NCBI RefSeq assembly: GCF_000758685.1 | Contig: NZ_CP009286.1 | Coordinates: forward strand, 712,501-776,500 | Length of the DNA: 64,000 nt | Reading direction: 5' to 3' | DNA from: Paenibacillus stellifer | GTDB taxonomy: Bacteria; Bacillota; Bacilli; Paenibacillales; Paenibacillaceae | In this document: one piece after another, positions 30,524-31,837 of the stretch | Position numbering within the stretch: position 1 is the first letter of the stretch | Layout of the letters: every line of letters starts with the position of its first letter | The notes under the pieces: generated by a model | The model's database searches: none | Told to the model about the DNA's origin: nothing | Seen by the model: the letters and a program-made list of their open reading frames with translations, nothing else | Position numbers and translations under genes: made by a program

Positions 30524-30595
30524 GGCCCGTTGGTCAAGGGGTTAAGACACCTCCCTTTCACGGAGGTAACAGGGGTTCGAATCCCCTACGGGTCA
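30524..30595 (+). tRNA. tRNA-Glu (TTC)
   Basis: Acceptor GGCCCGT/ACGGGTC, anticodon in CTTTCACGG, discriminator A. The gene itself lacks CCA, but a second copy of its last 15 nt at 30692-30706 is followed by CCA. Confidence 0.96.
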
Positions 30596-30709
30596 TATTT
30601 GCTTCTTCGAATGGGGATGAGAACCCCTAAAGGTTCGTCGGAGCGTAGACATCGTAAGGAATGCATCGCAGTCGGCTCGCTTGCGAGGCGTATCCCCTAC
30701 GGGTCACCA
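30596..30709 (+). repeat. Repeat element with duplicated tRNA-Glu 3' end
   Basis: Carries GTTCGTCGGAGC (30633-30644), TCGTAAGG, GCATCGCAGTCGG (30663-30675) and a small hairpin CTCGC-TT-GCGAG, then ATCCCCTACGGGTCA-CCA (30692-30709), an exact copy of the tRNA-Glu 3' end. Same architecture as the element after tRNA-Arg at 31699-31790. Confidence 0.8.
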
Positions 30710-30713
30710 ATAT

Positions 30714-30789
30714 GGAGGCTTAGCTCAGCTGGGAGAGCATCTGCCTTACAAGCAGAGGGTCGGGGGTTCGATCCCCTCAGCCTCCACCA
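30714..30789 (+). tRNA. tRNA-Val (TAC)
   Basis: Acceptor GGAGGCT/AGCCTCC, anticodon in CCTTACAAG, T-arm GGTTCGATCCC, encoded CCA. Confidence 0.97.
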
Positions 30790-30830
30790 TGATTATTCCC
30801 AAAAAAGTGAAGCTACGGCTTCGAATGCTT
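30787..30830 (+). repeat. Array spacer hairpin repeat, copy 2
   Basis: TTCCCAAAAAAGTGA ... GGCTGGGG: same AAAAGTGA block and TCCC/GGGG ends as copies 1 and 3, with a shorter middle. Confidence 0.4.
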
Positions 30831-30865
30831 GGCTGGGGCTAATAACAATAATATAATTTTACTGA

Positions 30866-30939
30866 CGCGGGGTGGAGCAGCCCGGTAGCTCGTCGGGCTC
30901 ATAACCCGAAGGCCGCAGGTTCAAATCCTGCCCCCGCAA
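30866..30939 (+). tRNA. Initiator tRNA-fMet (CAT)
   Basis: Anticodon in GCTCATAAC, three G:C pairs at the base of the anticodon stem (GGG/CCC) and an unpaired first base (C1 against A72) mark the initiator. No encoded CCA. Confidence 0.95.
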
Positions 30940-30995
30940 TTCTCCCCAAAAAGTGATGATATGCTTGTAGCGTATTCCGATTACTTTCCGGGGAG
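30940..30995 (+). repeat. Array spacer hairpin repeat, copy 3
   Basis: CTCCCC-AAAAAGTGATGATATGC ... TTTCCGGGGAG; same layout as the piece between tRNA-Asn and tRNA-Ser. Confidence 0.55.
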
Positions 30996-31014
30996 CCTAG
31001 CAGTACTTAAACGT

Positions 31015-31091
31015 GGAACCGTGGTGTAGAGGCCTAACATGCCTGCCTGTCACGCAGGAGATCGCGGGTTCGAATCCCGTCGGTTCCGCCA
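31015..31091 (+). tRNA. tRNA-Asp (GTC)
   Basis: Acceptor GGAACCG/CGGTTCC, anticodon in CCTGTCACG, encoded CCA. Confidence 0.97.
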
Positions 31092-31139
31092 TTTGATTTA
31101 CCTGATTTTACACAGCCTTTCAAACCATTTTTAGTGCAT

Positions 31140-31216
31140 GGCGGTCGTGGCGAAGGGGTTAACGCACCGGATTGTGGCTCCGGCATTCGTGGGTTCAAGT
31201 CCCATCGATCGCCCCA
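31140..31216 (+). tRNA. tRNA-His (GTG)
   Basis: Anticodon in ATTGTGGCT; the extra 5' G (-1, 31140) faces C73 as required for tRNA-His; encoded CCA. Confidence 0.96.
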
Positions 31217-31242
31217 TTAACTTACAGGCAAGTCCGATTTAT

Positions 31243-31317
31243 TGGGGATTAGCCAAGCGGTAAGGCAACGGACTTTGACTCCGTCACGCATAGGTTCGAA
31301 TCCTATATCCCCAGCCA
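31243..31317 (+). tRNA. tRNA-Gln (TTG)
   Basis: Acceptor TGGGGAT/ATCCCCA, anticodon in CTTTGACTC, encoded CCA. Confidence 0.96.
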
Positions 31318-31325
31318 TTATATGC

Positions 31326-31401
31326 GAGCCATTAGCTCAGTTGGTAGAGCACCTGACTTTTAATCAGGGTGTCGAAGGTTCGAGTCCTTCATGGCTCACC
31401 A
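31326..31401 (+). tRNA. tRNA-Lys (TTT)
   Basis: Acceptor GAGCCAT/ATGGCTC, anticodon in ACTTTTAAT, encoded CCA. Confidence 0.97.
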
Positions 31402-31410
31402 TTGTTACAT

Positions 31411-31498
31411 GCGGTCGTGGCGGAATTGGCAGACGCGCACGGTTCAGGTCCGTGTGGGCTAACCCCCCGTGGAGGTTCGAGTCCTCTCGACCGCACCA
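31411..31498 (+). tRNA. tRNA-Leu (CAG)
   Basis: Class II long variable arm, acceptor GCGGTCG/CGACCGC, anticodon in GTTCAGGTC, encoded CCA. Confidence 0.96.
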
Positions 31499-31507
31499 TC
31501 TTAATAC

Positions 31508-31582
31508 GCGGACGTGGCTCAGCGGTAGAGCATCGCCTTGCCAAGGCGAGGGTCGCGGGTTCGATTCCCGTCGTCCGCTCCA
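31508..31582 (+). tRNA. tRNA-Gly (GCC)
   Basis: Acceptor GCGGACG/CGTCCGC, anticodon in CTTGCCAAG, encoded CCA. Confidence 0.97.
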
Positions 31583-31589
31583 TATAGAT

Positions 31590-31666
31590 GCGCCCTTAGC
31601 TCAGCTGGATAGAGCGTTTGACTACGAATCAAAAGGTCGGGAGTTCGAATCTCTCAGGGCGCGCCA
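31590..31666 (+). tRNA. tRNA-Arg (ACG)
   Basis: Acceptor GCGCCCT/AGGGCGC, anticodon in CTACGAATC (A34 expected to become inosine), encoded CCA. Its last 18 nt recur at 31773-31790. Confidence 0.97.
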
Positions 31667-31698
31667 TCTATACATCATTGAATGATCCAAGCGTCACC

Positions 31699-31790
31699 TG
31701 ATTCGAACGAAAGAGTTCGTCGGAGCTTAAGCTTCGTTAGGGCTGCTTCGCAGTCGGACACGAAGTGTCCGCATCTCTCAGGGCGCGCCA
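31699..31790 (+). repeat. Repeat element with duplicated tRNA-Arg 3' end
   Basis: GTTCGTCGGAGC (31715-31726), TCGTTAGG, GCTTCGCAGTCGG (31745-31757) and hairpin GGACAC-GAA-GTGTCC, then an exact copy of the tRNA-Arg 3' end including CCA (31773-31790). The tRNA-flanking sequence (about 31 nt, ATCATTGAATGATCC) is also repeated on both sides (31667-31698 and 31791-31823). Confidence 0.8.
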
Positions 31791-31837
31791 TCAATAAAAT
31801 CATTGAATGATCCTAGTTTCACCTTCACTCTTTATAA

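Follow-up and report, generated by a model that had tools for sequence, protein, structure and literature searches.

The tRNA array of Paenibacillus stellifer contains two short units, each of which re-creates the 3' end of the tRNA gene directly upstream, and units of the same design stand behind tRNA genes in 90 of 100 genomes of the genus and in other Bacilli. We conclude that they are probably a Bacillota branch of the kind of element known in Escherichia coli as tRNA-linked repeats (TLRs), born by insertion into the T-loop. More specifically, we lean towards the view that the units are the TLRs of Bacillota, that they are insertions between A58 and A59 of the T-loop GTTCGAATC placed there by an enzyme acting in trans, and that the RNA made from them by read-through is functional.

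The window, i.e. the whole 64-kb stretch of P. stellifer DNA that we analysed, has 15 tRNA genes downstream of an rRNA operon; the Glu and Arg genes that host the units were identified with ARAGORN, and all features of the two units lie on the plus strand. Unit 1 belongs to tRNA-Glu(TTC) (30524..30595; ARAGORN and sequence), of which nt 59 onward, from position 30581, is part of the unit. It is 111 nt long (30581..30691), running from T-loop nt 59 to the pyrimidine that precedes the second copy of the tRNA end, with its boundaries set by comparison with relatives and with the empty site. An inverted T-arm at 30613..30627 consists of the 5' strand of a stem, P1 (GGGGAT), the dinucleotide GA and the 5' strand of a second stem, P2 (GAACCCC); the P2 3' strand, GGTTCG, which is the 5' half of a T-arm, follows at 30632..30637, and these assignments draw on the sequence and on pair counts in relatives. 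Next come a conserved core (TCGGAGC ... GCAGT; 30638..30672), defined by comparison of units, and a hairpin, P3 (30673..30690), that rests on covariation in 105 units. The displaced 3' end of tRNA-Glu (nt 59-76, with CCA) occupies 30692..30709, where it is recognised as an exact repeat and by the same layout in empty sites; its ATCCCC doubles as the P1 3' strand.

Unit 2, of 124 nt (31649..31772, from sequence comparison), is hosted by tRNA-Arg(ACG) (31590..31666; ARAGORN). Its inverted T-arm is a remnant, GATTCGAAC, at 31700..31708, the exact reverse complement of GTTCGAATC, and GAAC within it is the P2 5' strand; the P2 3' strand, GTTC, followed by G, makes up the T-arm 5' half (31715..31719). 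The core, aligned with that of unit 1, lies at 31720..31754, and P3, with a GAA loop and assigned by covariation, at 31755..31771. The displaced tRNA-Arg 3' end and a trailer resembling the proximal one extend over 31773..31824, exact for 20 nt and alignable to position 52; the 26 nt 3' of the exact copy (31674-31699 and 31799-31824) are 88% identical. Judging from this resemblance, the segment 31773..31824 is probably the remnant of a further unit.

A first-pass annotation of the window had described two elements of one architecture, each ending in a copy of the upstream tRNA 3' end. That description stands: the units are 81% identical over a shared 43-nt core (30633-30675 and 31715-31757), and each carries its own tRNA end, identical over 15 nt for Glu (30581-30595 and 30692-30706) and over the reported 18 nt for Arg (31649-31666 and 31773-31790), where the exact run is 20 nt. 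The annotation had put the units at 75-95 nt and had let them start just after the tRNA. Measured from T-loop to T-loop they are longer (111 and 124 nt), because the rebuilt tRNA 3' end and the trailer belong to the unit, whose first base is nt 59, within the upstream tRNA's T-loop. It was right that the standing tRNA-Glu gene does not encode CCA and that its downstream copy does. CCA in the distal copy alone is unusual in the family: among 130 distinct loci it is present in both copies in 61, in neither in 57, in the proximal copy only in 9 and in the distal copy only in 3.

The annotation would have been refuted by a core that occurred only here, or by the same pieces at fixed sites in all related genomes, with no empty alleles and no other tRNA targets. 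Neither is the case: the core is widespread, empty sites exist, and units stand behind Glu, Asp, Arg and Ser genes. A strict core pattern occurs six times in the P. stellifer genome and is present in 44 of 100 genus genomes, and its reversed control in 0 of the 100. BLAST searches of the same genome found more copies behind two further tRNA-Glu genes and two tRNA-Arg(TCT) genes, and one further copy of the Arg(ACG) type, at which the tRNA stretch is masked. With a covariance model trained on 64 units we obtained eight matches in this genome, all behind a tRNA gene except one (L002), where the gene stretch is masked and an Arg-type 3'-end copy alone is visible. Copy numbers across 100 genus genomes ranged from 0 to 19, with 90 genomes positive and 10 without a unit; the model found units in 41 of 148 family genomes (4 of 19 genera) and in 18 of 200 class genomes (6 of 94 genera, including three genomes outside the family), these family and class counts being lower bounds because the large searches use stricter filters. 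The three genomes from other Bacilli families contributed 15 matches, behind Glu, Asp, Arg(ACG), Arg(TCT), Ser(TGA), Ser(CGA) or Ser(GCT) genes. Contigs with the core pattern were, among the matches listed, mostly from Paenibacillus, together with Chengkuizengella and Fontibacillus; 8 of the 80 listed came from unrelated bacteria, had no tRNA before the match and were taken as chance. Two core-pattern matches were found in viral contigs, neither of them behind a tRNA, and phages and plasmids gave no match to the Arg unit.

Units mostly measure 110-155 nt from T-loop to T-loop and, as had been noted, are non-coding, with no gene of their own. Among the units listed, the order from the tRNA outward is nt 59 to the 3' end, a trailer, the P1 5' strand (GGGAT), GA, the P2 hairpin (GAACC..GGTTC), a core of about 35 nt (TCGGAGC..CWTCG..CWTCGCAGT), the P3 hairpin, one pyrimidine, and ATCCC..3' end again; in Arg(TCT), Ser(TGA) and some Ser(GCT) units among them, the trailer includes an intrinsic terminator that precedes the core. 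The 5' strands of P1 and P2 together form an inverted T-arm (GGGAT-TC-GAACCC), mostly altered to GGGAT-GA-GAACCC, and the core and P3 split the loop of the T-arm GGTTCG..ATCCC. P1 forms between the inverted T-arm and the displaced 3' strand of the T-arm, and P2 between the inverted T-arm and the T-arm 5' half. As a search pattern, a loose version of the inverted T-arm proved unspecific, its reversed control matching in 23 of 40 genomes.

The P1-P3 structure was set by hand and then tested on alignments. For P3 we used 105 units selected because their second copy could be recognised. All 105 form pair 2, in four pair types, against a shuffled mean of 54.1, and 94 form pair 3, against a shuffled mean of 57.0; in neither case did any of 1,000 shuffles reach the observed value. 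At P3 pairs 4 and 5, G-A and A-G predominate, which constitutes a tandem G-A motif. In a second alignment, of 136 distinct rows fitted to the model, 94.6% of cells are paired for P1, 89.7% for P2 and 98.9% for P3, and the covariation score lies above that of 500 of 500 shuffles. Two of five covariation measures on this alignment were not outstanding: of 500 shuffles, 56 reached one and 33 the other. In P2, the innermost pair is not formed in 62 of 129 cases. RNAalifold on a MAFFT alignment returned a four-pair hairpin only, without covariation, and mutual information within the core indicated no clear pairing.

For a survey of hosts we examined 300 units, the 150 best from each of two sets of 166 and 168 matches, which amount to 255 distinct sequences because some loci come from two collections. 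A tRNA gene lies within 800 nt upstream of 276 of them, and 18 of the remaining 24 are near the cut end of the retrieved stretch. The last six comprise two units behind a tRNA-Glu gene in which part of the sequence is masked by N, one unit behind a masked stretch, and three, two of them apparently one locus, in which a decayed tRNA-Arg(TCT) has the core within its T-loop. The latter arrangement was read in two loci (L063:4877-4970; L148, minus strand, about 1237-1354): the core stands directly in the T-loop, the 5' half of the tRNA is readable, and an intact tRNA-Arg(TCT) adjoins the decayed gene downstream. It is perhaps a deletion product between two GGGGTTCG stretches. Units per gene, at rates inflated because the loci were chosen for having units, were 66/88 for Glu, 54/55 for Arg(TCT), 26/49 for Asp, 10/45 for Arg(ACG), 34/41 for Ser(GCT), 9/29 for Ser(GGA) and 11/11 for Ser(TGA). 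Every gene seen of these seven types has the T-loop GTTCGAATC, as does one further unit-bearing gene left unnamed by ARAGORN. No other tRNA in the examined loci had a unit, even though this T-loop also occurs in 24 Gln, 18 Tyr and 7 Cys genes there.

Other small features were noticed in the same regions. Behind tRNA-Asn (30322-30376) and tRNA-Met (30940-31004), the window has a common GC-rich, hairpin-like repeat (ATTGCTTTCCGGGG..), which from its sequence is possibly another small element of the tRNA array. Two tandem c-di-GMP-I riboswitch aptamers lie at 23448-23528 and 23600-23680 of the window. The tRNA arrays of one other genome (G244), which has ten units, include Bacillaceae-1 RNA (RF01690) at L222:1654-1721 and L224:921-988.

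The first-pass annotation had suggested that the original tRNA end was displaced and rebuilt, and had proposed a search of relatives for empty sites with a single tRNA 3' end. Such sites are present, and their layout agrees with displacement and rebuilding. When the Glu-Val flanks of the window were joined at A58|A59, a full-length, unit-free match to the resulting 155 nt was found in at least 76 of 100 genus genomes, spanning 151-208 bases, and the best of the matches listed was 99% identical; the junction was read in 19 of 30 retrieved loci, with one strand examined. One genome (G028) has both an empty site (L244; TTCGA|ATCCCCTACGGGTCACCAACACGGAGG) and an occupied site (L033), which differ by exactly one unit at A58|A59. 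The distal copy at the occupied site reads ATCCCCTACTGGTCACCAACGCGGAGG, a change in a 3' end that is no longer needed. Loss by recombination between direct repeats would yield the same empty sites.

Units also occur in tandem: counting the units among the 300, 138 of 181 distinct loci have one, 30 have two, 9 have three and 4 have four. Distal units are often truncated and distal 3'-end copies often decayed, and among the loci listed, similarity to the proximal copy behind the last unit stops anywhere from the tRNA end to the middle of a further core. Runs of identity between 3'-end copies range from 15 to 60 or more nt in 130 loci, a comparison that admitted at most one mismatch in the first 15 nt and left out loci with more; the identity sometimes extends through the trailer and terminator, and mismatches along the distal 3' end follow no clear pattern. 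Because units begin at nt 59, we considered copying from a mature tRNA by a reverse transcriptase halting at nt 58. We rejected this idea, since identity passes the tRNA end by at least one base in 118 of the 130 loci.

We compared the cores of 93 units from 11 genomes, a test in which the same-type pool is larger and from which 25 of 118 units were dropped for want of a parsed core, type or comparator. In 83 cases the nearest core belonged to the same tRNA type in another genome, in five to another type in the same genome, and five were ties. Cores thus mostly resemble those of the same tRNA type elsewhere, and therefore jumping between types is rare or old; by this kinship the tRNA types look like old lineages of units. 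No recombinase was noticed near units among 1,716 ORFs grouped into sequence clusters; the largest clusters resemble conserved neighbouring genes or open frames that run through the array. The earlier idea of a tiny mobile repeat hence stands in part: a repeat family, empty sites and rebuilt ends are all present, but 83 of 93 cores lie closest to their own type and deletion would give the same empty sites, so that the units need not be mobile.

In the reading towards which we lean, a unit would enter the T-loop site-specifically at A58|A59 through an enzyme acting in trans, and would carry its own tRNA 3' end, from nt 59 onward and with a terminator in some tRNA types. The gene would thereby stay whole, and the old end, pushed downstream, could decay. 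Units would now mostly be inherited vertically within each tRNA type, tandem duplication multiplying them and recombination between repeats removing them, and the functional form would be the sense-strand read-through RNA, folded as P1-P2-P3 with the core.

The first-pass annotation knew of no described family with this design, yet the TLRs of E. coli (tyrT/RtT, proK, lysV, rrnB) share the 3'-end copy. We began the comparison because of a weak full-length match to the Rfam family RtT: RF00391 scored 17.1 bits (E 3) against the Glu unit of the window, short of its cut-off of 45 bits, and across 149 phylum genomes it gave no match over the cut-off and two weak partial ones. An E. coli RtT unit had no match in phages, and among the papers listed by a literature search none dealt with tRNA-linked repeats in Paenibacillus. 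As set out in the portions of PMC8144298 available to us, E. coli TLRs were first described in 1978 (Egan and Landy 1978 and Rudd 1999, as cited there), number 22 copies at ten loci, and have no known function, an early claim about starvation having been retracted. They lie directly behind a tRNA or rRNA gene, with one to five copies per locus, and their 3' end is identical over 18-19 bp to that of the upstream gene. The same portions describe three rRNA-linked TLRs (RrA/RrB/RrF) that lie between two terminators, are transcribed by read-through of the first, and are processed RNAs that bind Hfq and CsrA; the copied 3' end is suggested there as a processing signal, with reference to RNase E and RrB.

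A scan of nine E. coli stretches, with 32 tRNA and 5S genes among them, found a repeat of the gene's own 3' end, with no gene between, behind five: tyrV (19 nt), argQ (18), lysV (18), proK (19) and rrfB (13). Units behind tyrT, argV, argZ and others would be missed because an adjacent identical tRNA is scored instead, and tyrT does have a unit although the scan overlooked it. The T-loop of tyrV, argQ, lysV and proK is TTCGAATC; argX, hisR, proM, serV, tyrU and thrT have the same T-loop and, in the nine stretches, no 3'-end repeat. Both tyrV and proK have an inverted T-arm with the same GA change as in Paenibacillus (GGATGAGAA), lysV has a form without the change, and argQ has no clear inverted T-arm. 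At proK and lysV a terminator is repeated before and after the unit. The unit boundary is pyrimidine|ATC at argQ and lysV, as in Paenibacillus, and one A earlier at tyrV and proK.

The two groups are alike in lying directly behind a tRNA (in E. coli also a 5S gene), in a 3' end copied from the T-loop on, in tandem copies (tyrV) and in an inverted T-arm with GA (tyrV, proK). In addition, a tandem G-A motif like that of Paenibacillus P3 is reported for RtT RNA (RF00391, the tyrT/tyrV repeats) in the part of PMC7657543 consulted, and RrA/RrB/RrF have an upstream 3'-end copy and terminators on both sides as in Paenibacillus Arg(TCT) units. They differ in that E. coli TLRs have another core sequence and more hairpins, and in their hosts (Tyr, Pro, Lys, Arg and 5S versus Glu, Asp, Arg and Ser). 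Unlike E. coli TLRs, Paenibacillus units have one core common to all tRNA types; RrA/RrB/RrF stand behind 5S rather than tRNA genes, and their binding of Hfq and CsrA is known from E. coli.

Models built from either side find the other's units weakly and incompletely. In 50 kb of MG1655, the Paenibacillus model ranked four RtT units first, second, fourth and fifth (E 0.04-0.37). With a six-unit E. coli model, the Glu unit of the window was the top match in 64 kb (E 0.0087, against 0.17 for the runner-up) and the Arg unit was missed; in 18 other loci, the first 22 matches of this model were 22 of the 36 known units. Part of these scores comes from T-arm sequence, a part that convergence on tRNA targets could supply, and such convergence may underlie some of the apparent kinship. 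It accounts less readily for the shared GA change and the terminator layout. A bolder reading, which we offer tentatively and think unlikely, is that Enterobacterales and Bacillota share a single ancient family of TLRs, minimal site-specific elements that enter TTCGAA, the T-loop palindrome of tRNA genes, guided by their own inverted T-arm as RNA or single-stranded DNA and served by a trans enzyme, and that rebuild the gene they enter.

We considered whether the units might instead be an immobile, conserved regulatory RNA, a 3' small RNA of the tRNA operon with the copied 3' end as its processing signal, which we regard as possible if rather improbable. Conservation of the core and P1-P3 on the sense strand, U-G at one P2 pair in 25 of 136 rows, and the presence of units in 90 of 100 genus genomes, bound to one tRNA type, are all consistent with it, as are the processed, Hfq- and CsrA-binding RrA/RrB/RrF of E. 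coli in the portions of PMC8144298 cited above. Such an RNA fits poorly with a copy number of 0 to 19, with the 10 of 100 genomes that have no unit, with units at tRNA T-loops only, with a terminator ahead of the core in Arg(TCT), Ser(TGA) and some Ser(GCT) units, and with the frequent decay of distal copies.

Two other readings concern DNA. GNA triloops are very stable in DNA, and an RNA hairpin family with more GNA triloops than GNRA tetraloops is unusual. A triloop is the best reading for 60 of 100 distinct P3 hairpins, with the form GNA in 46; GNRA tetraloops account for seven. Together with the terminators ahead of the core in several tRNA types, this favours a single-stranded DNA hairpin that an enzyme of the host or of a phage would move or copy, in the manner of REP/IS200-type or attC systems. 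We nevertheless hold that reading to be highly improbable, as no enzyme was identified, and the U-G pairs and the tandem G-A motif (reported for RtT RNA in the consulted part of PMC7657543) fit RNA as well. Units could also be passive debris of old integrative elements, spread by unequal crossing-over only. Integrative elements such as phages and islands commonly use tRNA 3' ends as att sites; like the units they enter the gene in its 3' part and rebuild its end from the element, and the frequent truncation of distal units would suit debris. Unlike them, the units are about 110-155 nt long, have no gene, occur in tandem and contain an inverted T-arm, and no integrase was found near units in the ORF sequence clusters. 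A conserved core, a covarying P3 and one design across families argue against debris, as do the lack of a phage or plasmid match to the Arg unit and of a phage match to the RtT unit; the covariation in particular weakens this explanation, which we consider very unlikely.

For more than 40 years, TLRs have been a curiosity of enteric bacteria, without a settled function or origin. The occurrence of the TLR design across Paenibacillus and other Bacilli, with one core, empty sites and a covarying structure, suggests that it is a general bacterial phenomenon. With a comparative set of hundreds of units at no fewer than eight tRNA types, the origin, processing and function of these elements become testable.
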